A DNA stretch of 64,000 nt, from NCBI RefSeq assembly GCF_963675165.1, contig NC_087392.1, forward strand, positions 2,371,001 through 2,435,000, written 5' to 3'. How positions within the stretch are numbered: the first letter of the stretch is position 1; every line of letters begins with the position of its first letter. The notes under the pieces are model-generated. The model was not told the origin of the DNA. It was given only the letters and a program-made list of their open reading frames with translations, and made no database searches. Below, piece by piece: positions 3,492 through 40,944 of the stretch. Origin of the DNA: Halichondria panicea. Taxonomy: Eukaryota > Porifera > Demospongiae > Suberitida > Halichondriidae. The position numbers were made by a program, and so were the translations under genes.

Positions 3492-3506
3492 TGCTGTTTG
3501 ATTGAC

Positions 3507-10365: not shown

Positions 10366-10525
10366 CTTACTTTTTTACTCAAATCAATGGCCTGTATAGC
10401 TGCAATCATTGAAATTGCACTTCATATGCTTAGTAATTGTAAAGATTTGATGAGCAAATAATTATCTGACCACAAGTAGGCTGGTAGTGTCAGTGAAATG
10501 GGTCAGATGGAAAATTCTAATTGAG

Positions 10526-10643
10526 GTGCACGACATGCATAATACGTAGATCTCTTGTAATACTTGTTTTTGCTTCATAGTGGTGTGCACGACATGCATA
10601 ATACGTAGATCTCTTGTAATACTTGTTTTTGCTTCATAGTGGT
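10526..10643 (+). repeat. 59-base tandem duplication over a splice acceptor in copy 1
   Basis: Two identical 59-base units (10526-10584 and 10585-10643) begin at gtgcacgacatgcataa and include the acceptor region tgcttcatag. Copy 2 has a single unit at about 25171. Copy 1 therefore carries two potential acceptors for the last duplicated exon. Confidence 0.9.
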
Positions 10644-10810
10644 GTGAGCTTCTATCATTATTCTCTCAAATCGACGACGACCAGTACAGCAGCTCTGGCC
10701 TGACTGAGCTACAGCAAGGTAGCTCCAAGTACCAGGAGATTGTTATGAGCATACGAGATGACCCTATACACTACTCTCTCTAATGGGGAAGAGAAGGGGA
10801 CAGAAAGGAT

Positions 10811-16777: not shown

Positions 16778-16792
16778 TGCTGTTTGATTGAC

Positions 16793-16897: not shown

Positions 16898-16966
16898 CTT
16901 CAAATATAGTAGTTCACTTCAAACTTCTGATTTTTCTTCTATGAAATGCATTCACTTTGGGTCACA

Positions 16967-17515: not shown

Positions 17516-18825
17516 ATAATAATAATAATAATAATAATCGATGCTTTACAGTATGACTTTACATTTACACAAGGTGAATAGATTGTGGTGGTGCGTCAGA
17601 AATTAAACATACTGACAGGAAGTTCCTAGAAGGAACACCTGACTAGATCTACATACATAATTATACAGTTATACAGAGGAACAGGGACAGACTAGGTGAT
17701 AAGTGCAAATTATTGATTGGTCAAAGCGTTTCGAGTGAGAGAGATCTATAAAAGGGAGGGCAGGGCGTTCCAGAGTTTGACCAATCTTTTGAAGTAAAAG
17801 TGTCTTGTTGTGTTAGAGCGATGATGACCTTTATGAACTAGCTTGTGATTAGACGATAGTCTTGTGCTGCTGGTAGAGAATGATATGAACTCAGTAATGT
17901 CGAAGTTTTCTACTGGTTTTTGGAGACACCTGACGGCGAATATGACATCTTGCAACTCTAGCCAGTTCATTAGTGGCAAAAGGTCCAGTTTAATGAGGCG
18001 ACTTTTGTAGTCTAGACTATCAGATATACATGTAAGGTTCAGAATAAACTTTAAAGATCTTCTCTGGATTTGTTCCACTTTGTGATGGCCTTGTGTGTCT
18101 GTGGTCTCCACAGTTGCGAACAAAATGTTAAATTAGATCTAACAAGCGTAGTATAAAGTGTTCTTTTCGTGTGGAGATCATGAGAGCATTGAGTGTTTCT
18201 TACAAACAGCTGTAGGCCTTCGAACATAGGTTGTTGATATGTTTGTCCCAGGAGAGACTATTCTGGATGGTCACTCCCAGGTCTTTGTGAGAGTCTCTTG
18301 TTAAAGCTTTGAGTCCAAATTGTATAGCGAGTCATGAATGGTTTTACCAAAGTGGAGGTAGACACATTTGTCTAAATTGAGTGATAAGTTCCAGTCCTTG
18401 CACCATGTGACAAGATGGTCTAGATCAGATTGCAGGTCAGCTTGGTCTTCTGCATTGGCTATTCACTTCACTAGTTTAGTGTCATCTGCATAGATATATA
18501 TGGATGAATTAACGATTGGAGTGGTGATATCATTGACATAATTATACTAAAAACAACAGAGGACCGAGAATGCTGCCTTGAGGTACGCCTAATAGTACAG
18601 ATAGTGATGAAGAGTTTGTTCCCTCTAAACAGACATAGTGGCTTCGGTTGCTCAAATAACATTCAAACCATTTCCATACATTACCTGTAATGCCTAACCT
18701 CCATAGTTTGAATAACAGTTGTTTATAGGACACTTTATCAAACGCTTTTGCAAAGTCCAAGTATACAACGTCGCAGGATTCTCCAGCATTTAGAGCTTCC
18801 ACAATCTCGCTGTATGATGTTAGCA
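17516..18825 (-). mobile_element. 5'-truncated CR1/jockey-like LINE
   Basis: On the minus strand the reverse transcriptase motifs DVVYLDFAKAFDKV, GVPQGSILGPLLFL and, in another frame, IYIYADDTKL can be read. A C-terminal segment follows, with IQRRSLKFILNLTC near 18050 and RLVKLWNALPSLL near 17750. The reading frame is broken more than once, so the copy is dead. The 3' end is an (ATA)n tract at 17516-17538. The target gatgtacatgtac is present on both sides (17499-17511 and 18826-18838). Duplication copy 1 has the empty site near 4262-4280. Confidence 0.9.
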
Positions 18826-18966
18826 GATGTACATGTACGACAAACAGTTCCCTTTCCTCTGGCCTAGCGCCTGGAGCGCGCACAGAACCTAGTCTCGAGG
18901 CCAGACTCCTCCTGGCACATGTCAGATCACATGCAAGGTCTGGGGCTACAATTGTGAGACTACAAG

Positions 18967-19023
18967 TCCCCGCCCTCATCCACAGCTCCGCCCCATTGGT
19001 TCAGATAATAGAAAGGCGGGGCT
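18967..19023. promoter_or_regulatory. GC-box cluster before the complete dynein gene
   Basis: CCCCGCCC, CTCCGCCCC and GGCGGGGC occur upstream of the start at 19076. They are conserved with 4355-4412. The LINE insertion lies just upstream and leaves this cluster intact. Confidence 0.5.
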
Positions 19024-19075
19024 GTTTTTTCCAGCTCTCTGGAGCTATGAAAGTTGTCATGGCGATCCCTTTACT

Positions 19076-22000
19076 ATGACAAGAAGCATGCTTTCTTTGA
19101 AGGATGACATGTCACTCGAAACCAGCTTACCCCATGAAGATGGAGATCCAGAGATTCCTAGTTTGAAGTCCAAGTTACAGCTCAAGCAGCTTGGAGCTCT
19201 CTTTGTGACTGCACTGACCCAGCAAGAAGATGGAGCCGAAGATGGAGCCAGGTACGTACGTACGCACAAATCGAACAAGAAAAACTATAATTCCAGTTTG
19301 GCGCTTAGCAATAGAACGTAGAGTACTAGTAGCTGTTTCCATGAGGCTATCATAGATCAGTTGTACATGAGCCTCAATTAATAGCCGCGTTACTTAATTA
19401 AGCCTCTCAGTAAAAAATAATTCCAGAATTTTCTTGGCGCTCAATTGGAGTAAAATAAAATTATTTGCGCTTCTATTTGAGTGGCGCTGTAATTAAAAGA
19501 AATACGGTAATCCTCGACCTAAGCCTCATACTCACAACAAATATTTTAACCTAGCCAATTATTGGTTTGTAACAATGTACGTGGTGAAGTTGTGTTTGAT
19601 TATTAAACGCCTGTCTCTCCCTCCTTCTCCCTCTCTCTCCTCCCTCTCCCTCTGTAAATGTTTGTAACGAGTGTGACCAATGCATTTCGCTACAGTCGTC
19701 TATTATATTTTACTGCAGTGTGTCTGCCTGGGAGTACTTGCTGACCTATTTGGAGAGCACACTATCAAGAAGTCAAGTGAACCAACTTTCAGAACTCCCC
19801 GAGACTCAGCATTACATTCACAGAGCACTAAAGCATGTTCAAAAACACTCGGAAAATCTTGGACAACTTGAAATCATCAATCGCTTATCTAAACTTTTTC
19901 CTGTAATTGTTGAACGTTTGAAAGAGACAATTTTTTTAGTTTCCTCTGACGTAACCACACAGACAATTAAGCGTAAGCGAGCTGCTACCACCAATTCTTT
20001 TAACTCGTCTTCACCACTACATTCCTATTGTCCATTAAAGCTCCCTGCTACATTTAGAGGACCATCCGTACAACTGAATGAGCTTCTACCAGCAGCTAAC
20101 AAAGTATCAGTTGAGTTCTATGATGTGGAAAAGAACTTTGCTCACACATTTCCCACAGTCCCGCTAACACAACATAGTGCTAGGGTAACTCAAAGATCTC
20201 ATCGCAAAACCAAATCAACCCCTGGTATTATGATTGTTGAGCCAAGAGCTATGCTTGTTCCAATGCTCGCTTCAGAAATACAAGATGAACATTTTTCACG
20301 TTCTGATGCTCGCACCCTGTTTCCAAAGAAACAAATAAGATCTCCGAGGAAGAATATTGAAAAAGGAGCCAGTCAAGTATCTGAGATGAGGAGCGTGTAT
20401 GATGTTATCGAAGCATTTTCTACTGGGAAACTCAAGTCCGAATCTGAGTCCATCTACTTTAACTATACTAACTCTGATAAATGGAATCCATATGACCTGA
20501 CTATTGTACCTAAAAGGAAAGTACAGTCAGAACATTTTGTAGTATCCAAGTTTGGAATCCTTCAAGTACACCCTGATGGAACATCAGACTTGCAAAGTTT
20601 TGCAGGCTGGTTGAGAGAAGCCAGTTTTTACAAAATGCTGAGGAGAAGTCCATTTTTGAAAACCTATTTGGTTCGACGTGCCTTCAAGCAGTGGTATGGC
20701 AATGTACGGTTTGCTCAATTTGCCCGATTCCATAGACAGGTAGCAAGACTTTCGATTCGATTTCTACCTGATTTTGCTAGTGCTCTGCTCAAAATCCAAT
20801 CTCTCAGTGAAGAATTGCTGACTGTGCCTTTTCACCAACTTGTGCCTCTATCGAACTATGATCAAGAAACACTGGAGCAAGCTATACAGGGCTCACTGTC
20901 AAAGGCTCAACGACTACTACACAAATATTTCAAATATTGCAGACGTTTTATCATGGAAGTTATAAAGACAACTATTAGTCAGGTCATTATTTTTGAGACA
21001 GATAGACGGCATAAGCCATTCGTATCCGATCTTCCACTGAGTGTACAAAAAGATAAATTTTCACAGTTGGAAAAAGATTTAAAAGCAGCCAAGTATCAAG
21101 CGAGCAATCTTGCTAACTTCGTTTGTCTTGCAGAATATATTTTGTCCACTTGCATACTCACACTGTCCAAGCATGGAGCTCAATCTTGGATAGATACTGT
21201 TCTTACTAAAGAAGAAGACAGAGTCAATTTCACACCAGAATTTAGCAGCATTGTATCCAGTGAGACAAGACTGAGCCATACTTTTTGCAGCGCAGTGGAT
21301 ACTGAGTCCAAGCAGCTTCCTTCTGGTAGATCAAGCCCCAATGCAGATGCTTTCCTGTTGACCTCGTTTGAACTCAATGAAACAGGTAGGTGTAAAACAT
21401 AATTATTTTATTTTGTGTACATCATCTCTTTTCATCCCTTCCCCCCCCCCCCTCCATCTAGGAGAGCTGTGTGTTCATCCTTTGCCTTCAGACTTGAAGG
21501 GTCTCATAGCTGGCCAACTGCAAAGGATCTGCTCAATCCTCTCGTCAGTTGTAGCCCCTCTCACCAAGTCAACTGCAGCACAAAAATCTATAAGCAGGGA
21601 CGAGCATCAGCCCACCAACGATTCAAACCCTCAGGTGAGCATTGTACGTGCACATACAAGTAATCATTTTTGTTTTCGCTGTAGTACTCGATCCCCCAAG
21701 CAGCCCCTCCGTCAATGGCCCCCTCTAGACAGCCCAGGTCCCTCTTGACAGTCTTAAAGGGTATCAGTGGAGACAACAGGGCTGATGGCATGATGACCAG
21801 TGAGAGAGCGCGCAGTGAGCTCAGTGAGGTCACCACCAGGCTGCTCAGTGGTGCAGGGGAGAGAGCAGATGTGTTAGTTACACAGGGTTCACCACTGGAG
21901 ACCGACAAATTTGTGGACAAAATTAAGACAGAGTAAGTATAATGATCATGATTCGATTAATGAAAGTATCTTAGTGGTTTGCCTTCGATGTTCCATTCTC

Positions 22001-25000
22001 GAAGATCAACGATTATAGCTTACAATTACATGTATAGCTTTGGTGATTTTCCCGAAACGAATTTTATTTTTGTAAGGGATGGTGATCTTGTATAATTGTG
22101 CTTATCATTTTTTTGTAGTGAGGTGTTCTTGAATTGTGTGACAACCATTGAGACTGCTGTTGAGAGAGTGTGTGTTGAGCTCAGAGAGATGTGCTCTCAG
22201 TACAGCTGGTTGAGTGATGTGTGGAAATTCATCACTGCTTGGGATGGCAACGAGAAGATTGCTAGTATGACAGCAGATAAGTATGAGGTAATTAAGTTAC
22301 ATACGTGTCATAAGATGAGCATGAACATGTGTTCAGTCTAGTAGATTTTACCTTCAGAAACTCTAGATGACTTTAGGGGTTACTACGATACATAAGGGTT
22401 AGATTAGGCATGGAATTTAATTATTGCTCTTATTCCCCTCACAGGTAGTACTCTCCCAGCTGCATGAGTGGACTGATCTGGTTGCTCAGTTGCCCCCCAG
22501 ACTCCCCACCTCCTACTCTCTACTCAGTGTCTCCACGATCCCTGTTGCGGAGCGAGTGGGGCCTCAGCTGGCCGCTATGTTGGAGGAGCTCACAGCAGTT
22601 GGGATGCAGCGTGCAATGGCTCTTTGTAAGAAGGTGCTTGAGGATATCAAGCAACGGGTTGAAGTGAGTCATATCTATATTTACAGTCATGTTGTGCACC
22701 ACCCATCAGAAATACAAATTCATTTTCATATCCTCTATATATTGTAACCACACATTTCGTTCCTTATTGTACATGTAAATGTTTGTGTAGGTGCTGTCTG
22801 CTAAGAGATATGATCTGGAGGGATTTGCTGAGTATACGCATCAGTTGCGAGAGTGCCAATCATTTAACAAGAGTGAAGCAGACAACATAGACTATGTCCT
22901 AAGAGTTCACAATAGCTTGCTGCATCATGGCGTGTGTATACCAAAAGATGATAACGTAACTATTGTACACATTACCTATTTCTTGTCATAATGTGTACTT
23001 GCTCTAGGCTCTCAGCATGAAATTGCAATTGGCGTGGCATGCATTTCGAGGCAAGCTAAAAGAGGCTGAGGTGTTTGTCACAGCTCAAACTCCAATGAAG
23101 GCACAAGGACTCCAGGAGAGTATTGAGGTAATCAGCCACTAACTAGGGAGGGACCTGTCTATTTGCCAATTTGCAATTTTATAATTTAATACCTAGATCT
23201 ATACCTATATACATGTACATGTACCTACGTAAAAAGTGATGACAGAACTTTCATCACTTTTTTTCGCTTTTTTGATTCACCTTTTCTGGACCTAATAGCC
23301 ATTCACTGCTCACTACTTAGTACTATATACATCACAACACTTTGCAGGCATGTGTTGAAGACCTGTCGGCTCTTGTGAGGCAGGTCAATGAGGGCGAATT
23401 TATCAATCCTGCGGCTATCCCTAATGAGCTGCTTGATGAACTGAAGCTGATCCAGGAGAGTGTGTTGGCAGTGCGATCACGACTGTTGGGCCTCAGTAAG
23501 TGGAAGGAGGCCATCACTGGACAGCCACACGACCTCTCAGGGGTTAGCAGGTGAGGTATTGATCGTCGTGTTGCCTTGATTTGAACTCCAAATTATTGAT
23601 AATCAACTAACTACTCTTATTTTCTTCAGTTTGATGAATCAACAGTATATGCGCCAGGAGTTGTGGAAGTATCGTAGAGTATTTGACACGTACGAGAGAG
23701 AATGGGTCAAAACGCCGTTCAAGAAACTGGACATTAACCATCTATCCCAAAAGGTACAGGCAACTCTACTTATTTGTGTGTGAAAGTGATTATTGTGCAT
23801 GGAATAGGTTTCAGACTGGTTGACAGCTTGTACCAAGCTGGAGAGAACACTGTCTCCTGATGATCCAGTGGTGAGTGCATGGAGAGAGAGACTACAAGAG
23901 TTCAAAGGCAGGATACCGCTACTCCAACAACTATCATCTAAAGCTCTCAAGGTGAGTAGCAGATTCCCTGTACCTACTTTGTCCTAACACTACCATGTGC
24001 ATGTACGTAGCTTTTATAATTGTTAGCCATGTACACTAGCTTCTCGTAAAAAACCTGTTTATGGAAACATAGCCACAATTTTTATTATTACGTACCTGTA
24101 ATTTGTCATTCTCTGTGTAGGCTTCCCATTGGTACACAATATTTGCTTCACTGGGCGAAGACTACAATGCAGACTACCCATACACACTGGTAGACTTTGA
24201 TCTCTACAAGATGTACGATCATTCTGACATTATATTCGAGATTTGTCACGATGCCATGCAACAAGAGAAACTTAGAGCCAAGGTATGCCCCCCTTTGCGA
24301 TAAATGTACATGTACTAGGCACATATACAAATGCACGTACTATTTTAGGTTGACAAACTACAATCATTACTTGAGCAAAAGACGATTGCCGTTAACCAGT
24401 TTCCAATTGAGCGCTATCCATTTGCCGTTTCCAAAAAGTCAGTAGACACCTCTGTGCCCCATCGACAGGCCACCATATCACCACGCAAAACATCTCAAGT
24501 ACCGCGAAAGGTTGCCGTACCAAACACTCCATCAAAAACAACATTCTCTGTTGGTTTCCATGGCTTAACTAAAGACTCTGCTACCCTGGACTGCCTGTTT
24601 ACCATAGAACATCAGAACCAGCTGTGTTTGTGGCTAGAGGACAAACTGATACAGATGAAGGTGTTGCTTTCCTCCCCTCATCTTGGGAACTTGAAGTCCA
24701 GGGGAGAGCATTTATTAAAGACTCTCACCGAGCTGCAGGAGATTGTCATGATGCTGTCACAGTGTCAGGATAAGGTGAGTGTGTCGGTATGAAATACTGT
24801 ATACGTGTAGCAGGTTATTTTTGTGTGGTGGATATTTTGTATTGTAGAGCATCATCCGAAAAATAAAACTGCGAAATTATTCTACCGCAATAGGTTCTAT
24901 ATGTTACTATCCTGTGCTGTACTAATGTAGAAACGAAATATTTAGGTACTTCATACAAAAATTATATCAACGAAAATTACCTTCTATAGCTAACGGTACT

Positions 25001-28000
25001 TACTTTTTTACTCAAATCGATGGCCTGTATAGCTGCAATCATTGAAATTGCACTTTATATGCGGTAACTCGTTGCCTAGTAATTATAAAGATTTGATGAG
25101 CAAATAATTATCTGACCACAAGTAAGCTGGTGGTGTCAGTGAAATGGGTCAGATGGAAAATTCTAATTGAGGTGCACGACATGCATAATACGTAGATCTC
25201 TTGTAATACTTGTTTTTGCTTCATAGTGGTGTGAGCTTCTATCATTATTCTCTCAAATGGACGAAGACCAGTACAGCAGCTCTGGCCTGACTGAGCTACA
25301 GCAAGGTAGCTCCAAGTACCAGGAGATTGTTATGAGCATACGAGATGACCCTAGACTACTCTCTCTAATGGGGAAGAGAAGGGGACAGAAAGGATTCAGA
25401 GATCTGCAAGGAGAGCATCTTAGGCAACGGATTCATGACATGGAGTCAGTTTTGGTAAGTTCAGCAAATGTACGTAATTATGTTGTGCTTTATGCACAGG
25501 CTACTTATTAGTCACACACATGATACGTGCATATACTTTCATAAGTTTGTCCCTGTAGGAGATTGTGATACACAAAGTTCAGGGACGTCTCAAGGAGAGC
25601 TGTGTCCAGTTCCCTCGTCTTTACTACCTATCAGACAAAGATATCCTTCAACTTCTTTCCAACAATGGGAGACCCATTTCCATCATGCCATTGCTAAGCA
25701 GGGTGTTCCCCGCTATTAAAGGTATGCAACTGTCTGAAGTGGTTCCCAACCAGAGCTCCACCACATTTCGAAAGCTGGCCTCAAAGAGTGAAGAAGGTAA
25801 CATATTAATTGCCCCGTTGTAGGTACAAGTGCAATGTACTTTGTGCATACATATTGCCATACGTACTCTACGTAGAACTGCTTTGCACATTCTACATGTA
25901 TATTATTATTTTGTCTACAGTATTATACCAAAAATCTTCTCTGTGCACACATAGGGCTCCAGGTTATGCTGGTCGAAGGGTGGGGTGGGGAGCAGTTGCC
26001 TCTCTCTGTTCCCCTCCCCCTCGGGAGAAGACTTGCCCCTCAGTGGCTGAACGCTCTAGAGGGAGCTATCTCCTACTCACTGGCTGCAAGCCTCACCAAC
26101 ACCATCGCCAGTTTGCCGGACTGTCTAATGGGAATGAGTGGCAGTGCACCAACTGGTACGTATGTGTACTTGACATAAGTGTATGTACACTCTACCCAAA
26201 ATGTATTGGTAGCACTTTCTAGCAAATCACTAGACTCCATTGTTGACTGTACTGTTAATTGATCAACCATTATACAGATGCTGCTATCATTGGATGGGTG
26301 AGCAGCAACCTTAGCCAGTGTGTTCAACTATCACTAGAGCTCTGCTGGACCTCTGCCATTCATTCTGCACTACTCAGTGAAGAGCCGGTGACTGAGCTCA
26401 AGCAAACGAGGTACCGTAAATCTATCAGAAATCGTTTTACAGTAACTGTAATATTATGCTTTTGTTATGCAGGTCTAGGCTTTCAAATACTATAGAGTTT
26501 ATCACTGAATTGGTTCGATCTCTGGGCAGAGATTCTGGAAAGGGCACGGTCAAACGCTCAAGCTTTGTTGTGCTACAGAATTTGATCCTTATACTCATGC
26601 ATAAGACTGGAATCCTTAAAGCCATTCTTGACACTAAGTTAGCTGCTGTGAGCTGCTTCAATTGGAGGTATCGCATTCTCTACTCAACGGACACAGACAC
26701 ACTCTATCAAGACCATTGTAAGATCCAGATAGAACGAAGCTTGGCCTCCTCTTTTTCAAGCCTAGCTCCAAGCTCTAAGCTTACTGGCAAAGCAGCATCG
26801 TTAGGCTACAGATTACAGAATTCCTCCCGTAATTTAGTCGCCTCCAGCAAGAGCTTGCTGTCCTCTAAAAATAACTTGCTGTCAACTACCAAAGCCACTA
26901 ACGAACATAAGAGTTCCGCAACTTCTTCGATTGTGCTGACAACTGAACTAACCTCGAGCAGACGTTCTGTCCCAACAAAATGCATGGTCCACTGTGGCGA
27001 GAGCATAGTGCCATACGGATTTGAGTATCTGAGTCTGGACAGTAGACTGGTGCTCGCCCCTGAATCAGAGGCCTGCATTCTCTCCATGGTCAATTCCCTG
27101 GCTCAATTCAACTCTTGCTCACTTCACGGGGGACCAGTGTCAGGGAAGACAGAGACAGGGAGAGAAATTGCGAAGGTACAGTATATACCTACTGTATAAT
27201 ATATTACTGAAGTGTAATAGGCAATAAGTATAATTATTTTGTTATTGGTTGCCATAACTAATTCAGGTAATAGATTGCTTTGATCTTTGCAGTGATCGTG
27301 CAACAATAAAAAAATTACTGGAACTTTTTTGTGCATGCATCTTGTACAGATTACTTTTATTGATACGTGTGAAGTACACGTGCTAATGTCTATGATTGTC
27401 ACTGAAGGTGGTTGGAAGGCACTGCCAGGAGTTCCGATGCTCCCCTGAGACCACCCTCTCTACCGTACACCGGCTATTAACTGGGGCTGTTCAGACGGGA
27501 TCTCTACTGCTGATAGACAACTTTGTTGATCTCAAATTGGAGGTGATGATCTTGCTAGGAGAGTGGCTGCGTTCACTGAGCTTGTTGTTTGCAAAAGCTT
27601 TTAGAGGAACGCTATCAGAAGTAAGCTGTTGGCATAACCAATATTTGTGTTTATGCTACCTACTCTTTCTCTTTTTAGCAAGAAGAAGCTCAAAGTGATG
27701 CAGGTCTCACAAATGTTGAAAGTACTTCAACTATTGGCCCCATTAGTTTATTCAATCATCAGCAGTCATTCAAAGCTTCCTCCAACCATTTTCATATCCC
27801 CAAGCTACCATCTAACAAAACTTTGACATCACAGACAGATGATCCGTTGACCACTTCATCTCTTAGCCACCATTTGTCTCGTATGCCTGGCCACGGGATA
27901 GCAGCATCGTCGAGCAACAAGACATCCACCCCTTTCCCCTCACACAGAACCGAGACTCCTTCACAATACCATCACTCGTCTATGTCCGGGAGAACCAGTC

Positions 28001-31000
28001 GAGCCACCACAAGAATGGACTGGTACAAGATGGTCGAGGATGAGGCCGAATGGTTTGGGTATGGTGGAGCACCTAAAGAGGAGCTTGAGTTTACTGGTGA
28101 TCTGCTCAGAGCAAGCCCCGCATTTGGTTGTGTGCTAATCAGTTCTTCAAATGTACAGAGTCGATTTGAAATCCCTCATCAGCTAAGGGTTGGTTGAAAT
28201 CGATATTTTGATGCCGTGTTCACTAATTAACATGTTCAGGTTGCTCTGCGTAGTGTGGGGGTGATGCCGCCTGATCTCTCATGGGTCACTGAAGTTCTAT
28301 TGCTGAGTAACGGTTTCAAATCAGCACACAACCTGAGCAGAAGCTTTTCAAAGTTTTGGCAGGTCTTCGGATACCAAGTAAGCTCTAAAACAGTGTAAAG
28401 CTCAAGCTATTAACTCTTTGTATTCTGCCCATAGATTTCTTCAAACAGTCTTAATGTGTCTCCACCACCCTCAACTGTCAACCTACATGCTTTGAAGCTT
28501 ATTATCAACCAGGCAGCCTCAGTCCTCCACAATACTTCTGACCCTGGTCTCTCCGAGAGGAAGATCCTGGTCGGCTCTATTAAGCAGTACTTCTCCCCTC
28601 AACTAACCCATCCGGGAGAGACAGAGCAGAGAGAAGAGATCGGGGAGCCTATCAGTACCACCTACGAGCTGGCCACTTGGAACAAGCTGAACCAATTACT
28701 AGATCTGCATTTTCCTGAGTGTTGTATGTCACTTGGTGATGATGGTGGAATGGATAGCAGGCATGAGTTGGTAGAGCTTACTGACGCAGTTCAAGCGCAG
28801 CTCAAAGAACAGCATCTTCAGACCCTCCCATCACTTGTAAACAAGGTACGTACATGCACTGTGAAGTATATTTTTTGTTTTAATACACAATCTTAAATGG
28901 TCTCAGATTCAGCAGCTTCACTTATCCCTGACGAGCTCAAAATGTGTTTTGCTGTGTGGACCATCTGGAAGTGGAAAGACAATGACTTACAAGACACTCG
29001 CCTCAGCCTATCAATATATCAGAGAGCTGAGAGCCCTTGGAAAATCCTCGAAAGCTTCAAAAGCTTCAAACCGATTTGATAATACAAAAAAGTGTGAACA
29101 ATATCCTACCATTGACATCACAGTGCTCAACCCAGCTGCATACACCTATGATGAGGTAAAATCTATGAAATCTGAGCATAGGCGCTTTACATTGTTGTCA
29201 CACTTGTTTCAGTTGTTTGGGTTCTACAATGGTTCTTGTGATGAGACTGGACATCAACATTGGAGGGATGGAATTCTCACCAGGATATTCAGACAAATAC
29301 AATCACTAGACGAAGGCAGGGCATCCATTACCACCGACACTTCACGAGAGGTATGTGTGCATGTGTAATGTACAAGTGGGAGGTCAGTGCACTGCTGCTG
29401 GTACTGTACATGCATGTAGGTATAGGTTCTTGGTAGCTAGCAATGTACTGTGGTATAAGGTTCACAGCTCGAACCCTAATATGTAAACACACACTCGTAA
29501 GGAATGTGCAATGTGTTGCTGTGTAGGTTGAGTCAGTGGTCCACTGGATTGTACTGAATGGTCCTGTAGATAGTATGCTTACAGAGATGCTTGCTTCACT
29601 TGTCAGTGGAGAAGGACTGTTTCTCTCCAATGGAGACAAACTAAACCTTCCTGGTAAGATCATAACTCAAATGTGCCATAGGCAAAGTTATAATTCCATG
29701 TACAAAAAATGTTTAGAAGTCACAACATGTTCTGCTTACTACACTTCCTCAGGCTCTTGCCAAGTGTTGGTTGAGACAAACAGCCTTGCTGAGCTGAGCC
29801 CTTCTTTCATAGCGCACTCACCCCTCCTCTACTTCAGTGGGGGTGTGCTCACATTTGATGCTGTGGTCGATACATGGTTGGACAGGGCACCAACACAACA
29901 TAACCTCAGTGCCATGAGGTATATAGCAGTACACACGTAGAGTTTTTTAATCACTTTTTCATTTCTTGTATGTCTGTATGCGTAGTATTGTGTAATTTTT
30001 AATTGTGTATAGATTTACAGATTGTACATGACTCTTGACATTAGCAGTTATGGGTTAACTGTTGCCTCTTGAATGACCAAAAGCTCATTTTCAAGCCTGA
30101 TTTTTAAAAATGCGGAGCTATATATGTGGGGGAATTGAATTGTCAACATTTGGCGCTTAGGCACTTTTTAATTATTGTGTAGACGATAGTACTATTAATA
30201 TTATTGTGTGTACATACATGTACGTACACTAACAGTACATGTAATGTATGTACACCTAACTTTGAGTGTGTTCTATGCTTGTTCAGCACTGAAACTATGG
30301 CAAACATTATCAAGAAACTTCTGCCAGAGACTCTCGAATACTTGCACAAGACAAACACAAAGTGTCTAGGCACATCATACTCACTCTGGGCCTCATCTCA
30401 GACGTATGGATTGATCGAGACTCAATCCTTTCTTAACTTTCTCTCAGCCGTTCTGGAGCGTAATTCTCCTAAAATTGAGTCAAGTGTGACGCACACAGGG
30501 ATGGCCAGTAGGAGCAGCAGACTCAGCAGCAGGGCAAGCAGTGCTGTGCTCAATAGTTTCAGGTGAGATCCCAAAACCTGTTCCATTCACCTTCGTGCAC
30601 TTAATTTCCTAATGCAATATTCATTATTAGCTGTTACTGTGCAAGGTGGTACATACATCATGTACGTACTTCAATTTCTCCTAGCAGCTCAGCGTCAATG
30701 CAAGAGCATAGCAATGTCTCAATGGTAACTTCCAAGACTAGTGTGAGCATTGAAGGGGAACCACTCGAGCCATTGCCAGATGACCTCTCGGACTGCAATC
30801 TGGAGGTGGAGTTTGGCCTTTCCTTGCAATTCCAAATGGCCTCAATGCTAACGTTTTCATACATCTGGTCTCTCGGTGTTTTCTGTCCTTTCAGGTAAAC
30901 TGTGATATTCCCTTGAAACACAAACTATTTTCCATTTTTGCAGTGAGCTTTCCTCTTTTAGTGACTTTGTTCGGGAAATGATAGGCAGCTACATACCGTT

Positions 31001-34000
31001 TGAGATGTCTGTACCTGAAGAGGGCTCTGTGTTTGACTATTACTTGAACTTGAGACAGTACAAGTTTTTACCGTGGTCAGAGAGAAAGGGAGGTGGGAGT
31101 AAGGATGTATCTGCGAGTGGATATGTCTCCTTTCCCGAAGTAAGCACTGCATGTGCAAAGTGTGCTGATGCATTATATAAACGTTAAAAAAATTGTTTGT
31201 TTTTCTGTACATGCAGTTGGACCGCTACACATATATCATAGACCTGTACATATCGTATGGGTTCAATGTGATGATTGTCGGTGGCAAAGGATCTGGGAAG
31301 AGCTCACTCGTTCAAAACGTCCTCCAAATGCAACGTCCCATCACAAGATTACCAATAACTCCTACCCTTACAGCTGGCCAACTTCAAGAGAAAATTCTAA
31401 CTCGGGTCAGTGACATTGAGAAAAGAGCTGGGCAAAGATTCTCACATAGACAGTCATCGCCAATGAAGTATTTATTTTTTCTGGACGATGTTCATGTTGC
31501 AGCTAGAACTAATTTTGGGTCTGGGAATAAAGTCTCTACTGTATTGGAGCTCACTAGATTTGTCTCCACTCATCGTCAGCTCTACGATTATTCTAGAAAC
31601 TATCTGCACACTTTCAACGAAGCTCGATTTATTTGTTCGTGCACTCCTGAGGAATATTGGAGACTGCCGATTGAGTTTTCTCGAGCGTTCAGCTCTGTGC
31701 CTTTCCTACCTCCTTCTGACAGTTGTCTTAGGCACATATTCTCTAGAAGTGTTTTACTATGGTTACAGGGGTTTCCGGAAACTTCAATTGGAGATCCTGA
31801 AATATTTGCTGAGGTGAGTGCATGTACAGAATGTACATGCATTACGTAATGTATGTTTTCCATGCATGTGTACACCATTTTACCATACATTTTTCTATAT
31901 TTTATTGAATTCAGGCTCTTGGTACTGCTTCTGTGGCTGTGATTCGTAGCTTGGCTGATAAAATCTGTCCCTCTCCCTCAAACCCCCATTTTACTTTCTC
32001 GTTACATGACTTCATGCACGTGTACGAAGGCTTGTTGCTTCTCTCACCGGACACTAAGACTAAGTCCCAACCACAATTCAGTTTGCTAAATCGTAGGGGC
32101 TTCCTCAGCTCAACACAAAGTGATCAATCTCTTCGGAAAAAATCTAGTAGTAAACAAAAGAGACGTTCTTTGCCATCCTTGAGCGTGGGCTCTAATCAGA
32201 ATCAACTGAGATCTCGCAAGAGAGGATCCTCTTTGGCTGGCAATTTGCTCCTCAATGATCAAGCTCAGTCTACCATACGAATGGTGATAAGACTCTGGTG
32301 TCATGAGACAACACGTGTGTATTTGGACAGGATTGTGGACAGTAAAGATAGGATCTGGTTCACAAAGCTGCTTGAAGTGTGTATCAAGTACTGTTTCTGT
32401 GGAGATGATCTAAGTGGCTCAACAACCAAATCTATACCACAACAGAGGCAGCTCGGTGGAACAGCATCTTATGGTATGGAAGTGCATGCACATGCATGTA
32501 CATGCATAACTTACAGGATCTGCAAAATGACATTATGTTGTGTGTTTAATAGTGTACCTTACGTTCAATAGATAATCTGTTGCTTACATTGTAAGACTCA
32601 CATTTTGAAACAAAGGGAGTATACATTTAGATCTATGTAGATCACTTTTCACTTCATGTGTGTTTGTCTAGGAAGTCGACGTGTACGTGGTGGGTCAATG
32701 AGAGGTGGCATACTGCCCCAGTCCTCATCGGATGGTCCTAAACTGGAGGATCTGGTCAAAATGGGGGTCAGGGTGGAGGTCCTGCAGCAACTGATGCCCC
32801 CCGGTGATGGTGGCAGTGGACTCACTAAGCTACTTGCTCTAGATCAAGTGACGATGAAAGGAGAAGATTTGACAGGTCAGACACATTTGCTCTCACTAGA
32901 TTGCTACGTATATAGTTGCTAGGTACACGTGTGTTCGATTTGATACATATAGGTATTTTCACTTTTTTTTATATGCTTGTGAGTTGTCTATGAAATAATG
33001 TTCTTGTTTCACTTTCAGAGTTGATATTTGCTCAGTTTCCTAAGGTTGCCAACTCAAATGTCGAAGATTCAACTTCTGCTACTGATTCACCCTCTGATAG
33101 TCCCAACTACACTGAACTGGGTGATGGACAGGTCATGGACATACTGAAGATGCACATTGGAGATTTGAATTCAGGAGATGGATTAGTCTTGTTCAAGGGA
33201 GCCATTGAGCATGCAGCACGAATATGCAGGGCAATGGTACTAACGTACTCTGTGCACATTGTATATACTCTCACTCTTATGTATGTGTGTATAGAGTTTG
33301 GTTGGATCTCATGCAATGCTCATTGGCACTAGGGGCTGTGGAAGAAGGACCCTGGTCAGACTCATGTCACAAATCTTTAAAGCCAAGGTAAGTAAAAACC
33401 ACACAGCTTGGCTGTGAGGATACTGTTTGGTTTTACGTACGTTGATCGCTGTGTATATTTATTTTCTTGATCGTACACACACTACTTCCAGTTGTTTGAA
33501 GTCAGATCAGCAGGAAACATTCTGAAAGACACCTTAAGAGATGTGTGTGTGTCTGCTGCCGTAGACTCGCAACCAACAGTTCTACTGGTCACTAACACTG
33601 ACGCACTCAAGTCTCAAGATTGGGAGAAAGTACAACTCCTGATGAAAAATGGTATGTTCAGTATGAGTCACTTACACTATAAAAGTCGACAGGTATAGCT
33701 AGGACTCCAGTCTGTACATATCGATTGTCTCCTACATTGTACCATCTCTCTCCGCTTTCTTAATTTTAAAACTTGGTTGCTAGACAACAGAGTATATTAT
33801 GTAGTACTGTTAAAAGTATATTAATTATGTTTATAGGACTATGCCCTAGGCTGTTTACCACATCTGAGCTGCTGGTGATGAGCAGCAAGCTCCAGAAGGG
33901 CAGAGTGAAGAACACTACCGATTTTGCCCAACAGATATTTGCCAAGACAGTCAGGAAGCACCTACATGTATTCATAATCTGGGACGTAGACAACACCACT

Positions 34001-37000
34001 GATACCCTCTTCAGTACAACCACTGCTAATAACAAATCACTAGGGGAGGAGCAAATGAGGGCCGTCTTTTCATCTCTATGTCAGGCTTGCTCGTACATTG
34101 ATCATGTCACTAGCTGGACAAAGCAAGAGTACACTGACATAGCTTTGAGATCGTGGCAGCAAGGATTTAGCAATACAGGTAAGCTGAATGTTTCACATTG
34201 AGATATTACTTATTTTCACACAGGCGGTACAGCTGTGAGGTTGCAGGATTGGATTGATACCAGCAGTCAACTGGAGGCAGTAGGCATGCTCGCTACACAC
34301 ATTCACCTCACAACCTCAGAGCTACTGACCAGGATAAACGGGCGTCGATCCAGCACACTAATCTCACCAAAAGTCTTCATTGAGTCTTTGAGAATTGCTC
34401 AGGAACTGGCTGTCAAATTCATAGCTCAAGAAAAGGTATGTACATTTGTACATTCTGTTTCGATGTATTATAATGCCATTTGTCGCAATCATTCATTCAG
34501 GTGGAAGAGACCCGTTTGGAGATGGCTCTACAGAAAATGGCCCAATTGGACAGCACTGTGTATGAGTTGGAGCAGGAGCTGGGGGTACTGAAGCCACAGC
34601 TGGCCGTGGCTGAGCAGGAGGTGCAGCAGCGAATGAACCAGATAACGACAGCCAAGGAAAAGTAAGCTAGTACTGTTAACCTCATCACAATGCTGCACAT
34701 GATAAGTTCAATTGGGCTTTCTCTTTAGTAGAGTACATACATGTAGCGTAATTAAGTGCAACATCGGTGTCTAGTTTCTCGTAACACTTAAAGTAGTCCT
34801 TGAGAATCCACCGATCTTATAAAAACAGTTGCCCCCAGACCTCCCCTAAAGCTGTACCTTTGCCCCTTCCCTGCAACAAGAATACAACTCTTTATATATC
34901 AGGAGGTTAAAACAATGTACTGTATACTTGTGTGTAGGTACATGGCAGCCAACCAGAGGTGTAAGACAGCTGAAGATACTATAAATAGTGAAACAAGAAA
35001 TGTGGAACGCTACTCTAAAATGGTCAAAGAAAGATTCAATGAGGTACATAAGAAATGATATCACTTTCTTGGTACTATAAACAAGGATAGTAATAATGGT
35101 CACTTTAGAGAACTTATCGGGCCCAAATCCACTCATATAATTATAGTAATGCAAGATTGCTATTTAGTCCGTTACCTACCTCGCTGTGAGTGGAAAAGGG
35201 GGCCTGTTGCGCGTGCGTATCAATTACCAAATTAGTATTTTAGGACGCACAAACTTTTGTCAATATTCTTATTCCGCTTTTCGTTGATGTTATAGTAAAA
35301 AACAGTAGTAAAAAATCTACGCTACGTATAATTATGTCAAGTTGCTTGTTGAGATGGCTTCTACCACTCTACTACTCTTCCGCTCTCACTGAGCCAATTG
35401 CCCTACAGTCTGCAGAAGGATGGACACTCAACTAACCATCTGGGTTCTGTACACTCGCTCGTTTAATTGCGAGTTTTACTAACAATTGCACAAACAGTGC
35501 ATACCAAACCCTATTTAGGGGCCTAGAATCGAGGCTATCTGTTGCCTAATTAATGTTTAGGGCGATGCAAGCCATTGAGGATAATTAGAATTGAGTGATG
35601 GGTTCTAACAGCAACTGAATTACGTATCAGGGCATGGGGGACCTTTGTTGAATGATATATTAATTCTCCATAAAATTATATACTATAGCCATGTGTCTCT
35701 GTATGTACGCAGGTGTCACCAGTCTACTACTCAGCACTTCATGCTTTGTCCTCTGTTAAGAAGAATGACACTCTTGAAGTAATGGGCTACCGAAACCCAC
35801 CAGACGTGCTCAAACCAGTTTTTGATGCCCTTTGCATGCTCTTTGATAGGGAACAAACGTGAGTTGACGTAGCTACATGTATATAATTATGGCACTGTCA
35901 TAATTTTTTTCCGCTGGTCAATTTCTTACGTGTACGTAGGTGGGAGGATTGCCAGCAGTTACTTATTTCACCAAATTTCTTTGAGAACTTAAGGTTTTTC
36001 GATAAGGATAATGTTCCTAAACGAAAGCTGCATCGTCTTAATAAAATTATCAGTAGACACTCAAAGTTTGAGATGCTTGCTCAAGGAAGTCAGGCTGTGA
36101 TCTCACTGTGCTCCTGGCTTAATGCTTTGATAGACTATCACAACACTAAGACGGCAGTGCAGCCTTTTAGAGAGAGTCTGGCTAAAGCGGAGAAAACACT
36201 GCTAGATGTACGTGCGAATACAGCATGCATAATTATATTGATGCCAATCACACTTGTATTTTTCCCGTAGGCAAACAAGACATTTGTTGAGATGCGTAGA
36301 GACATGATGGATACAAAGTTAGAGCTTGAAGAGACGGTGAAAGTACACAAGGAGAGTGTGCAAAAACAAAGATCAGTTGAACTCGAAATAGAGGTATAAT
36401 CTGATCCTGTCATATCATACTAGTTGATACTCGTGTGTGTACTCTTATATAGGGCATTCGCTCCAAGCTTGACCATTCCAATCACCTTTTATCCACGATA
36501 TCCAAACAAAGACAGAAATGGGAAGAAAGTATCAAAATCACCAAAGGGAGGATTGATTCTCTCCCAGGTCATGCTGTACTGTGCTCAGCAGCCGTCTGCT
36601 ACTTGACCAGAGTCCCGCCCAATAAGCACAATGACCTGCTCTCTGCTTGGTTAGGCTACTGCAATGGCAGCATTAGTCTGGGAAACTTGTCTGAGGATCG
36701 TGGAGGACTACAGTCTACACAGGTAAAGGGTATGTGTAAAGTTAGTCGTCATATACACGTATTTATTATGCAGGGATATAAAGTGCACGGAGGACAGCAA
36801 CAAGTTGTACGGATACAAAAGGACTTCACAGTTGCTGCCCATTTTTCTGAAAAAGCAGAGCGGTCTCTGTGGGAGCAAGAGAGCACATTTCCTGATCAAA
36901 TCCTCCTTGATAGATGTTTGTGCACAAGATTCTACTGTAGAGCTGGAAGCTGTAGCTGGCCTCTGGTATTTGACCAGTACAGTCAGTTCAAGGGCTACCT

Positions 37001-40000
37001 GGAAGCATTAGAAAAGCAATCAATCACAGCTTCTCAATTAGAAAGTACGAGATTGAACATGCTAAATAAATGTATTGTTGCTTACATGTATTAATTTTTG
37101 TAGGAGAGAGTAGCTCAACTGAACTTGGGGCAGTTCTCCAAATGGACCTGCAAGACTCTGACGTGGCTCAGAGGCTATCTAAAGCCATGACCACTGGACG
37201 CACAGTATTACTGTTAATCAAGAATGTGACAATCTTACAAGACGAAAAGGAAAATGTGAATTTTTTGTCGAAGGTGTTCAGAAGAGGCTATTTCCGAAAT
37301 GGCGGCCAAACTTTTCTTGACCCATCTTGCAGCGTTCTTGTACACCCCCACTTCAAGCTGTATATTGTGATTGAGCAGAGCCTAGAAGATGTGATGCAAT
37401 CGACTGCCTATTTCAATAGTGTGGGATCTTTTTGTGGTAATGACTGGTCTTCTATATTCGTGGTTGAGCTTGGATTGAGCCTCAAAGGACTCCAAAGTCA
37501 CCTTCAAAAGCTGATTCTGAAGTACAAAAAACCAGAATACAGTATTCGCTACAAGTCACTACTAACTGACCTGACACTACATCATCAACAGCTTGAAAAC
37601 AATGAGGTACGTAGGTGCTGTGCACAATACTTAAAATAATATTATACGTTTAAAACTGTTAACAAGCAATCTACATGTATATACAAACATCCAGCTCTCT
37701 AATCATTAAACCAAACTAGTCCCTTAGCCAGGTGCCTCTCCTTTGTCTGAGAACAATGGATTGTCCCAAAGTCCATAACCCTGAGCTCTGTGGGCCAGCA
37801 TCTTCAACATTATACCAAGCACCAATAACCCTGACACATGCTTTAATTTCATTTATTCTGTGCAGAGAGCCGTTATTGACAGTGTGGTGGACACTCCTAC
37901 CTCTCTTCTGGAGGTGCCTGATCTCCTCGTGACTATTCAAGAAAGTGAATCATCAGATGCTTCAACTCTAGAGCTTATCCACGAAACAAATAAGAATATC
38001 AGGACATTCAATCAGCAGTCCCTTGCCTACAAATCTCTTTCGGAATATTCCAGTTTGCTGTACACCTGCATACGGAGACTCCAACAATGTTTCAGATATT
38101 TCAAGTTTCCATTGGATCAGTTTGAGGTTTTGTTTAGTGAAGTTCTCACCAATTCAAGCAGAGGAGTGAAAGTGCCAGACAACGTTATGGCCATTAATGC
38201 TCATGTCCTCCACCTAAAGCACCAGCTACTGTCAGTTGTATGCAATACCCTCAAGGTATGCATGTGCAGTGATGCATCATATTGGTGTGTGTATATAGTG
38301 TGCATTACCATAGGTGCACCTGTTTGAAAGGCATCAAATTCTACTCTTATTGCTGGTGGGCCTCGAGTTTATGAAACACCAGGGTAAACTGGTATCAGAG
38401 GAGGTCGAGGTGCTCGGGAGGGTTCTTCTATTGACTGAGGGACAAATTGATTTATCTTCATCTTCATCTGATCCAAGCTCTCAATACGATCCACTCAAGC
38501 CTTCATGGATTAGTGATGAGGTGAGTATTAGCTTATAATTATTATCAATGCGTTGTAATTTTGTTGCACTTCTACAGTCATGGTGTGCTGTGCTTCAGCT
38601 TCAAAAGGGTCTCCCCTCCTTTAGACGGCTATCCACAGAGATAGTCAATCACAGTTGTGAATGGAATGAATACTTGAAGGTTTGTCGCACCGTATGTATA
38701 GGTGTATTCATATTTGGCAAGAATCACCAATGTTATATGTACTACTGTACATGTGCGTACGTATAGATAATACTCGTTTTAAATGCATGTGATGTTTACC
38801 ACATCACAACATCCGCAGTCCTCCCCCTCTCTCCTGATGCCTGTACCTGGTTATGGTGACAACTGTTCAATGCCACAAAAGCTTCTCTTGTGGAGAGTTT
38901 TACGACCAGAAATGGTAGGAGAGTTGATTCTAACTACATGTACATGTGTCTCACTATTTTGGTTGCATGCAGTTTTCTGAAGCTGCAAAGGATTTTATCC
39001 TTCTGACCTTCGGCACAGACTTCACCAACACACACCCCTGTACCATTGGCTCGATTCTTCCTTACACCAACCCTACCACCCCAACATTGTGTTACTACTC
39101 AAACAGCGTTAGCTTCCCTGAATCTCTGAAGCGAACTGAAGCTACCAGGGAGCTGTGTTGTGTTGCTCTGATTGATGAGCACCACTTAGTTACCATTGAG
39201 TCTCAGCTGTCATACCTCATGCAAGACGGGCACTGGCTTGTGGCTGAGAATCTCCAATTATGTCACAACCCATCAGAAATGTTTTCATCGCTTAGCAAGG
39301 TGAGACTCCTAAGACGTCTCATTGTTTACTGTCTGTATACTTGTGTATTGCTGCTGCAGGTACTTAGTGAATTGTCCAAAGAAGTGACTGTCCATCCAGA
39401 CTTTAGAGTATGGATACCTTTGCCCCTTGACTGTTTTGTTGCAACTGATTTGGGAGGAGGATTCGCTTTTGAATACAAAGTAAACAAATAATTGTGTACT
39501 ACATTATGTAATTATTTAATTTATGGCTTCTGCACACATACAGAGCTTTGATTTTTCTCCGAGTAGCAACCAGCTTATTTATGATCTTCAAACCGTGATC
39601 AATTACACATCTACTAAAGATGGGGCCTCCAAAACCAATTGTCAAAAGTGGGAAGCTCATATCACTCTGATTTCAAAGCTTCAGAACTTTATCTCTCAAC
39701 CTCTTTCTCTGACTGACCTGGCTGAACTCGACCCAAACCAAGACACCTCACAAAACATTTTACCGCTTATCTTTGAAGAGTTGGCGTCAACAAACAGAAT
39801 ATTGACGTCCCTACAATCTTCACTTTGGAGTCTGTATAATTATTTAAATGGACATTTACGATTTACAGCACAAATTGGAGCCACATTGACAGCACTGAGC
39901 AACAACTCGATACCTGCAAATTGGGCTTACTCACTTTCAACTGACCACGGTTTCCCAAGAACACTCGTGCCAGCACTAAAACTCTTGAGGGAGAGATTTT

Positions 40001-40944
40001 CAGTTTATGTCGGTGTTTTACGGAGTGGAGCTGTACCCAGTGAAACCAGTCTATTGATGATCTCCAAGCCCGATGACCTAATATCACGAACCATGCTCTC
40101 GTTTGCAAAGGAACATGAGCTACACCCTTGCAATGTGACTGTACAAGCACAGGTATGTGTGTAACTATCTGGGAGAAATTGTATGTATTTTAGTGCATGG
40201 GTAATGAAATGGGTTTTTGGCTGGTGGATGGGTCATACTAGAAAATACAGAGCACTACCTTAGGCACAAGCAACGAGGGCAAGTTTCCTGTATAATTATG
40301 TAATATTGCATAAAACACAAGGTTTCTCACGCTATTATTATATCATAACAATCCTTTACCAAATCATTCCTCGAGGCTACACGGCCGTGTAGTATATCAC
40401 GGATGGGACTTTTATTACATGCTTGTAATCTTGACAACGTGATATAATGTGTGCTCTAGCTAAATTTACGCACTTTTTACAAGTATTACAGAGGCTTAAG
40501 TGTCATATGTGTGTGTAACTATGTGGGGAAACTTACATGTATTTAGTGCATTGGCATGCTTTAGGTATGGCCAATGCTATATATGCATTCTAGAGTTCTT
40601 CCCTTAACTCTAAAATTAAGCAATTTTCCATGTAGGTGTTACTGAGACCCGGAGATGATCAAGTTCATGAGCCGTGTCTCGTGTTGAAAGACCTTCTCCT
40701 ACACAAAGCTACACTCGACAGTCATGGTCACCTTGTATGTGACATTCACGAAGGAGCTAGCAGTGGACAGTCATGCTGGGTTGCTGTGTATTTCGATAAC
40801 AGGGAGAATGCCAACAAACTGATTCTAAACTGCCCTGTCTTTATAAACTCTGCTTATAGATTCACCCTTCCACTGGTTAATACTCACTGTGAGCTTGACT
40901 CAATTAGTGACAAGATTTACCTCAGTTGTGACAACACCAATTAA
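19076..40944 (+). CDS. DNHD1: Complete DNHD1-like dynein heavy chain (about 55 exons)
   Basis: A dynein-type heavy chain of roughly 4,800-4,900 residues by a rough sum of exons, close to the length of human DNHD1. The order is: a long N-terminal tail (exon 1 at 19076-19251, exon 2 at 19719-21385, then many short exons), a linker with FPRLYYLSDKDILQLLS (25605-25660), and six AAA modules. A coiled-coil stalk with microtubule-binding domain lies between AAA4 and AAA5. The C-terminus ends in a conserved strand containing CPVFINSAYR. Walker A loops are intact in AAA1 (GGPVSGKTET), AAA2 (GPSGSGKT) and AAA3 (GGKGSGKS). AAA4 has Arg for Lys. The AAA1 Walker B has Asp-Asn instead of Asp-Glu. Known DNHD1 acts in sperm flagella. 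A flagellar role here is inference. Assignment to DNHD1 rests on divergence and length, so another divergent axonemal class is possible. Confidence 0.8.
24795..24998. mobile_element. Miniature inverted-repeat element in a dynein intron (copy 2)
   Basis: Same element as 10144-10365, with slightly different ends (tactgtatacgtgtagcagg and taacggta). Confidence 0.6.
25558..26410 (+). other. Dynein linker-domain exons
   Basis: Within the complete gene, these exons read RLKESCVQFPRLYYLSDKD and then MPLLSRVFPAIKGMQL. This corresponds to the conserved FPRFYFLS...L.KCFEGI block of dynein linkers. Exon limits are about 25558-25797, 25950-26155 and 26277-26410. The linker is the mechanical element that swings over the AAA ring, so its retention implies selection on more than a tail function. 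Confidence 0.75.
26472..28378 (+). other. Dynein AAA1 module with altered Walker B
   Basis: The approach segment VPYGFEYLSLDSRLVLAP matches the canonical YGYEYLG...RLVITPLT block. Walker A is GGPVSGKTET (27127-27156). Walker B reads GSLLLIDNFVDL, with Asp at 27516-27518 and Asn at 27519-27521 where dyneins have FDEFNRI. The sensor-I region reads VLISSSNVQSRFEIP in place of the usual MNPGYAGR-type motif. A Ser/Thr-rich insert (about 27700-28000) interrupts the module. Nucleotide binding looks possible; hydrolysis looks impaired. Confidence 0.75.
28906..29918 (+). other. Dynein AAA2 module
   Basis: Walker A is GPSGSGKT (28958-28981). It is followed by ITVLNPAAYTYDE and HWRDGILTRIFR, as in canonical AAA2. 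The Walker B block reads HWIVLNGPVDS, so the usual Asp of FDGPVD is Asn (29557-29559). The module likely binds nucleotide without hydrolysis, as is normal for AAA2. Confidence 0.75.
31217..31811 (+). other. Dynein AAA3 module
   Basis: One exon codes for Walker A GGKGSGKSSLVQ (about 31280-31315) and Walker B YLFFLDDVHVAA (about 31471-31506), corresponding to canonical FIDDLNMP. AAA3 is therefore the best preserved candidate for regulated hydrolysis in this protein. Confidence 0.75.
33019..33650 (+). other. Dynein AAA4 module start
   Basis: The block LFKGAIEHAARICRAM precedes a Walker A-like loop, GTRGCGRRTLVRL (about 33328-33366), in which Arg replaces Lys. Axonemal dyneins often have GRQS here. 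The Walker B-like segment is PTVLLVTNTDALK. Three or four short exons code for it. Confidence 0.7.
34500..36392 (+). other. Dynein stalk and microtubule-binding domain
   Basis: Coiled-coil 1 is coded by exons near 34500-34660 and 34937-35041 (ELEQELGVLKPQLAVAEQEV). The microtubule-binding head follows at about 35713-35858 and 35940-36100: SALHALSSVKKNDTLEVMG, RNPPDVLKPVFDALCML, then LRFFDKDNVP, all close to the canonical KSM.NPP..V....AV and YDKDNIP landmarks. Coiled-coil 2 is near 36140-36392. The head is well conserved, so microtubule binding is likely. Confidence 0.8.
35042..35712 (+). other. Large intron inside the dynein stalk
   Basis: No coding sequence, no RNA gene and no clear element ends are visible. 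It separates the end of coiled-coil 1 from the microtubule-binding head and is one of the longest introns in this otherwise compact gene. Confidence 0.6.
36453..40944 (+). other. Dynein AAA5, AAA6 and C-terminal region
   Basis: About 14 exons code for the second half of the ring. Landmarks include GHAVLCSAAVCYLTRVP at the AAA5 start, VHPHFKLYIVIEQ, HPDFRVWIPLP (the canonical HPDFRLWLTS-type strand) and a final strand region, CWVAVYFDNRENANKLIL. The stop is at 40942-40944. The C-terminal domain is full-size, so the gene is not truncated. Confidence 0.75.
40151..40634 (+). repeat. Last dynein intron with an internal direct repeat
   Basis: A block near 40153-40205 (gtatgtgtgtaactatctgg, then gtgcatgg) recurs in diverged form at about 40505-40555 (tgtgtgtaactatgtgggg). 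Between the copies lie a 16-base palindrome, ctacacggccgtgtag (40377-40392), and inverted tatatcacg / cgtgatata. This suggests an insertion into the intron with a duplicated flank. Confidence 0.5.

Follow-up and report, generated by a model that had tools for sequence, protein, structure and literature searches.

A sponge dynein-like heavy chain without the AAA1 catalytic glutamate and with a retained microtubule-binding domain

Dynein heavy chains are built around a main ATPase site, AAA1, and a gene in the sponge Halichondria panicea raises the question of what such a chain can be when the residues that serve this site have changed. Is the protein still a motor, and if it is not, is it a structural part of some kind or a gene in decay? 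The gene lies within the window, a stretch of 64,000 nucleotides (C16:2371001-2435000 of the 131-Mb genome), where the initial annotation had noted that the catalytic glutamate of AAA1 is missing from the dynein-like protein of a complete gene. The question turns on a small number of positions. A cryo-EM study of dynein structure marks Walker B, sensor-1 and the arginine finger as the principal catalytic residues of AAA1 (PMC5473941), and an AAA1 change from glutamate to glutamine (E/Q) is reported to abolish ATP hydrolysis virtually completely (PMC4359366).

The gene model and its domain order

The gene was modelled as a phase-consistent exon chain in two runs, the second of which gave a bonus to five segments because the reading frames showed that the first had omitted parts of AAA2, AAA3, AAA4 and the C-terminus. 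The predicted model closes with a TAA stop codon at the 3' end, and its first exons and start codon are uncertain. Its 37 motor exons hold no internal stop in the correct frame and 165 and 246 in the other two frames, although the open frame is weak evidence in a model that was built to be open. When the genome was searched with the AAA3 exon or the AAA1 region, each query matched its own place only.

The order of the Pfam matches is DHC_N2, AAA_6, Dynein_AAA_lid, AAA_7, AAA_lid_1, AAA_8, MT, AAA_9 and Dynein_C, which is the architecture of a dynein heavy chain, running from the linker through AAA1-AAA5 with the stalk to the C-terminal domain (Table 1). The recognition of DHC_N2 agrees with the earlier description of the linker as intact. 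AAA2 is matched by general AAA models only, and the DHC_N1 and AAA6 models find no match in the protein at E 0.01, the tail being divergent and its start uncertain.

Table 1. Features of the dynein-like gene and its partial duplicate, in window positions
Feature	Position	Strand	Basis
Partial tandem duplicate, 5' (tail) part only	4333..10810	+	similarity to 18944-25395
Whole dynein heavy chain gene (55 predicted exons, 4,841 aa)	18334..40944	+	semi-Markov exon chain, five segments given a homology bonus
Linker region, best stretch of DHC_N2, residues 1309-1571 (approximate)	24595..26100	+	Pfam E 1.4e-48
AAA1 Walker A GGPVSGKT, general consensus kept	27128..27151	+	sequence, paralogue alignment
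AAA1 Walker B exon	27408..27620	+	AG at 27406-27407, GT at 27621-27622
Asn codon AAC replacing the catalytic Glu of Walker B	27519..27521	+	Glu in 15/15 canonical paralogues
Ser/Thr-rich insertion in AAA1, ~140 residues, most of it (approximate limits)	27679..28090	+	alignment
AAA1 sensor-1 segment VLISSSNVQSR, Asn of TMNPGY replaced (Ser)	28132..28164	+	Asn in 13/13 readable paralogues
AAA2 Walker A GPSGSGKT, kept	28958..28981	+	pattern and alignment
AAA2 Walker B HWIVLNGPVD, Asp to Asn	29542..29571	+	Asp in 14/14 readable paralogues
His replacing the AAA2 arginine finger, SRCGM to AHSPL	29815..29817	+	Arg in 14/14 readable paralogues
AAA3 Walker A GGKGSGKS, kept	31280..31303	+	frame reading, pattern
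AAA3 Walker B YLFFLDDVHV, resembles DDxN of axonemal paralogues	31469..31498	+	frame reading, comparison
AAA4 Walker A GTRGCGRRT, Arg for Lys	33325..33351	+	Arg also in 4/8 readable canonical paralogues
Stalk/MTBD region	35713..36207	+	Pfam, match to solved dyneins, paralogue alignment
Dynein C-terminal domain (approximate)	39600..40890	+	Pfam E 3.5e-10

The AAA1 site, the ring and the stalk

The central claim of the initial annotation was that the AAA1 Walker B reads LLLIDNFVDL, with asparagine in place of the catalytic glutamate, and this is borne out, the AAC codon falling exactly where it had been placed. The exon that carries it translates as VVGRHCQEFRCSPETTLSTVHRLLTGAVQTGSLLLIDNFVDLKLEVMILLGEWLRSLSLLFAKAFRGTLSE and is the one previously delimited as 27407-27619, the model setting both ends one base later. 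No gap is needed to align the Walker B stretch with two solved dyneins and with the 15 canonical heavy chains modelled from the genome, the latter all reading FDEFNR (three of these, L009, L010 and L012, are closely related); a fragment in L015, the 16th, likewise reads FDEFNR. Since the same modelling returns this motif in 15 paralogues out of 15, chance is a poor explanation of the asparagine, and because AAC is two base changes away from either glutamate codon, GAA or GAG, one wrong base would not be enough to produce it. A different splice that restores the DE pair, which would have undone the original reading, does not appear, as the three surrounding introns contain no DE motif in translation; a loose DE pattern run across the window gave one match only, on the opposite strand.

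These results bear directly on the simplest rival, which is that the modelling of the gene or the assembly is at fault and the Walker B region has been misread. The gene model was predicted from DNA alone, without RNA, which leaves some room for such an error, but the gap-free alignment with solved dyneins, the need for two base changes, the flanking introns without DE and the correct recovery of FDEFNR from the canonical paralogues by the same pipeline all speak against it, as does the alteration of three catalytic positions in three separate exons, so that an artefact is extremely improbable.

The second of these positions is sensor-1, where the motif had also been called changed and where the asparagine of the paralogues is indeed gone (Table 1). 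The third, a loss that the initial annotation did not contain, is the change to histidine in AAA2 of the arginine of SRCGM, which we take to be the AAA2 arginine finger serving the AAA1 site. In these comparisons the sensor-1 rows of L018 and L026 were left out, their exon having been missed by the model, and so were the arginine-finger and AAA2 Walker B rows of the mis-modelled L019; the canonical set is without L013, L014, L015 and L028, and the partial AAA1-AAA2 copies on C13 stand outside the Walker B scoring. Thus, of the catalytic glutamate, the sensor-1 asparagine and the AAA2 arginine finger that an ATP-driven motor would be expected to have, the protein has none, and with all three lost it would very probably not act as an AAA1-driven motor.

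The remainder of the ring is less uniformly altered. The Walker A loops of AAA1-3 had been described as intact, and this holds in so far as all of them fit the general pattern GxxxxGK[ST]; however, the AAA1 loop GGPVSGKT departs at several positions from the GPAGTGKT or GPAGTGKS of the 15 paralogues and is missed by a stricter Walker A pattern. The Ser/Thr-rich insertion in AAA1 sits between the Walker B helix and sensor-1, beginning at the end of the exon that precedes the one in which most of it is held (27679-28188, open in frame). In AAA4 the Walker B aspartate, present in 7/7 readable paralogues, has become asparagine. The AAA4 Walker A change from lysine to arginine was considered as a fourth loss, mimicking a yeast double mutant in which AAA1 E/Q is combined with a lysine to alanine (K/A) change in AAA4, and was rejected; it is not countable as a loss because the same arginine is found in the canonical chains L016, L020, L022 and L025, four of the eight that are readable.

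At the other end of the motor, the stalk is recognised by Pfam as MT (E 7e-15), stalk and microtubule-binding domain (MTBD) together match solved dyneins with E 4.4e-23, and the MTBD sequence is flanked by two coiled-coil arms. In dyneins the first and last helices of the MTBD contact the microtubule. The first helix of the sponge protein has KK, and the last has Ala-Gln at two positions where at least one Lys or Arg is found in 13/14 paralogue rows. The earlier description of the microtubule-binding head as intact stands for the fold, and in the last helix the missing basic residues could weaken microtubule binding. In a scan of prokaryote contigs with the MTBD for hidden animal sequence, none of the 61 pattern matches was a relative.

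Constraint, decay and the other degenerate heavy chains

Is the gene, then, simply decaying? DNHD1, the vertebrate heavy chain that it most recalls, has been called a ghost gene that is maybe becoming a pseudogene (PMC8754002), and on that model the sponge gene would be a remnant of the same type, an old dynein copy losing its function. The very long branch of the gene is what such a fate would leave, and so is the halving of its AAA1-AAA2 identity, which averages 25.5% against the canonical chains and 48.9% among 12 of those chains. An adjoining partial duplicate of the tail, with indels, points the same way. Divergence is nevertheless uneven along the protein. Mean identity in the linker is 21.8% versus 32.0% among paralogues (9 chains), or 21.5% versus 38.4% over a shorter stretch (8 chains), and in AAA4 it is 26.5% versus 40.2% (5 chains), while the MTBD, at 25.7% (12 rows) versus 30.2% among 10 of those 12, shows nearly normal divergence. 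The MTBD values are without L023 and the short fragments L016 and L018, and L009 and L012, which are 84% and 96% identical to L010, were excluded from the paralogue means; AAA3 gave no match with the L010 query. On these figures the microtubule end has been conserved best among the four compared parts, and the main ATPase least well.

The tail duplicate provides a more direct measure. In coding sequence it differs from the gene by two single-base indels and one 3-base deletion, with a further insertion of 2 bases at the margin of the similar stretch, and over 1,315 codons there are 15 synonymous and 14 non-synonymous changes, giving a dN/dS of 0.27 (Fisher p 0.0005) once the duplicate's ragged end and the codons lying between the two single-base indels are removed, and of 0.41 unfiltered. 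Differences between the tail copies are likewise fewer in coding (32/4,135) than in non-coding sequence (36/2,185, p 0.002). This speaks for purifying selection on the duplicated tail, the test covering the tail and not the motor, and the value of 0.27 argues against simple decay. The stops, frameshifts and dN/dS near 1 that would mark a pseudogene are not seen: dN/dS in the tail is 0.27 with the filter and 0.41 without it, and the 55-exon model has no internal stop or frameshift, although it was built to be open. With the P-loops of AAA1-3 kept and the MTBD at nearly normal divergence, decay is improbable. The duplication itself, which spans 1451-10810 and 14738-25395 of the window, is a recent tandem one of an HSP70 gene together with the 5' dynein tail; the HSP70 copies lie on the - strand at 1518-3551 and 14804-16828, with ORFs of 677 and 674 aa, and in the upstream dynein copy the similarity stops before the motor.

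Two further genes of the same genome have a degenerate AAA1. In the gene at C16:4.99-5.01 Mb (L013/L029) the AAA1 Walker A reads GSVGSGKVQ and the Walker B CLADVHTL, and in that at C1:16.61-16.64 Mb (L014/L030) the aligned Walker A is GEEGSGKSS and the Walker B LLHSLDTL. The AAA2 arginine finger is asparagine in the first and is kept as arginine in the second, and the rough models of both retain an AAA3 P-loop and have no AAA4 P-loop. Each carries several Pfam dynein domains (2,437 of 3,344 modelled residues were scanned for the C16 gene and 1,460 of 4,232 for the C1 gene), and their mean MTBD identities are 20.2% and 20.5%. The AAA1 Walker B is thus destroyed, and the AAA3 P-loop kept, in all three genes.

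Whether the three belong together is less clear from the trees, which are weakened for these genes by long branches. Within the genome the window gene falls inside no supported set, on a very long branch and with a best identity of 27%. An LG+G4 tree joins the three degenerate-AAA1 genes at 48-55%; a mixture-model tree (without L019) splits them, and AU tests leave the clade unrejected (p 0.31, 0.37 and 0.40). It is a tentative, and on balance doubtful, idea that these three non-motor dyneins represent an ancient ATP-insensitive ciliary scaffold, with vertebrate DNHD1 as a survivor of it, such that the 'ghost gene' would be a functional pseudo-motor.

Dynein sequence is repeated elsewhere in the genome as well. 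About twenty partial AAA1-AAA2 copies of a heavy chain lie at C13:5.0-6.1 Mb (L028 is an example), and they share one strand with a single exception. Several copies of a dynein stalk region at C11:3.83-4.26 Mb suggest that part of a heavy chain gene has been amplified locally. L010 and L012 (C12:1.94 and 1.97 Mb) are 96% identical in AAA1-AAA2 and stand in opposite orientation some 27 kb apart, and L009 on C4 is a third copy, 84% identical to L010.

Function, and comparison with DNHD1 and other dyneins

What could a heavy chain of this kind do? The initial annotation proposed a nucleotide-locked microtubule tether or scaffold rather than a motor. Its negative half is strengthened by the three AAA1 losses. 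Its positive half meets a difficulty, since in yeast dynein AAA1 E/Q alone is reported to place the stalk in the weak-binding beta registry in ATP (PMC7683685), and the tether reading consequently needs a further assumption. In the same source, blocking ATP binding at AAA1 gives the alpha/gamma registry, combining AAA1 E/Q with blocked binding at AAA4 (K/A) gives the gamma registry in both directions, and among the tabulated yeast mutants the non-beta registries occur where AAA1, AAA3 or AAA4 is kept from binding ATP (PMC7683685). Circumstantial support for the assumption comes from two of the losses, that of the arginine finger and that of the AAA4 Walker B aspartate. An AAA1 without glutamate, sensor-1 asparagine and arginine finger should not hydrolyse ATP by the normal route and would probably be unable to close on it.

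The tether is favoured on two grounds: the loss of the arginine finger and of sensor-1 should stop this closure, and no other compared part is as well kept as the MTBD. Since linker, ring, stalk and MTBD are still present an ATP-insensitive cross-link is its likeliest mode, in which the tail would anchor the protein and the tip of the stalk would grip an adjacent microtubule without stepping. If vertebrate DNHD1, which it resembles, is a guide, the protein probably serves the assembly of a cilium or flagellum and not its beating, and would bind microtubules in cells and be located in cilia. Overall, the non-motor reading of the gene is well supported and the tether reading is plausible but unproven; for an AAA1-dead heavy chain kept as a structural protein, probably as an ATP-insensitive ciliary tether or scaffold resembling DNHD1, we put the chances at about even.

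Two other functions would keep the protein free of stepping. In the first, AAA3 would exchange or hydrolyse ATP and so switch the affinity for the microtubule, with AAA1 binding nucleotide in a structural capacity only. The AAA3 Walker A GGKGSGKS and its DDVH Walker B are suited to this, the AAA3 P-loop is kept in both other degenerate-AAA1 genes, and AAA3 is described as the gate of microtubule release in yeast dynein; that gate, however, acts through ATP binding at AAA1 (PMC7683685), which is probably impaired in the sponge protein, and a regulated binder is on these grounds rather unlikely. In the second, the chain would act as a pseudo-subunit: paired with a heavy chain that is active, it would hold that partner or set its position, and its own passive head need not be bound to a microtubule. 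The weak binding predicted from AAA1 E/Q (PMC7683685) would suit such a head, and there is a precedent in DNAH12, which is reported to be without a typical MTBD and yet to be needed for recruiting DNAH1 and DNALI1 (PMC11949491). A passive head would not need an MTBD, though, and among the four compared parts it is the MTBD that has been kept best, so that a pseudo-subunit is a somewhat weaker candidate and is likewise unlikely.

How does the tether reading sit beside known dyneins? With the canonical axonemal and cytoplasmic heavy chains the protein shares the linker, the AAA1-3 P-loops, the stalk, the MTBD and the C-terminal domain, and it differs from them in the three lost elements of AAA1 and its neighbour, in the ~140-residue AAA1 insertion and in having DHC_N1 and AAA6 unmatched by Pfam. 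The yeast E/Q mutants, single or combined with AAA4 K/A, resemble it in that the AAA1 Walker B glutamate is removed (PMC7683685), but unlike them the sponge protein is also without the arginine finger and the sensor-1 asparagine, and its AAA4 P-loop is of the arginine type. DNAH12 is similar in being a heavy chain thought to work with partners, and shows the opposite loss, as it is described as having no typical MTBD (PMC11949491) while the sponge protein has an MTBD and no AAA1 catalysis. In a literature search on DNHD1 and inactive heavy chains, with subscription journals outside its reach, no title or opening of an abstract among the matches listed contained this combination of losses.

The closest comparison is with vertebrate DNHD1. 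The predicted 4,841 aa are near the 4,753 of the human protein (PMC9916431), and neither is assigned to a canonical heavy chain class, DNHD1 being described as an orphan (PMC8754002). The DNHD1 label is a lead, and the two genes may be orthologous; the asparagine in the AAA1 Walker B may be lineage-specific. The human variant positions Gly1997 and Arg2011 (PMC9916431) were tried as a guide to orthology and set aside as uninformative, because their spacing fits several dyneins. Knockdown of dnhd1 in zebrafish is reported to leave cilia fewer and shorter while beat frequency does not change significantly (PMC9749982), in keeping with a structural role, and men with DNHD1 variants are reported to have a disrupted sperm flagellum (PMC9916431). 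DNHD1 thus presents a puzzle, as it is an orphan or ghost gene by description and yet its loss goes with broken sperm flagella in humans and with fewer, shorter cilia in zebrafish. A DNHD1-like gene that has lost three elements of AAA1, and that has kept its MTBD and a tail under selection, addresses this puzzle if it is read as a dynein reused as a structural part.
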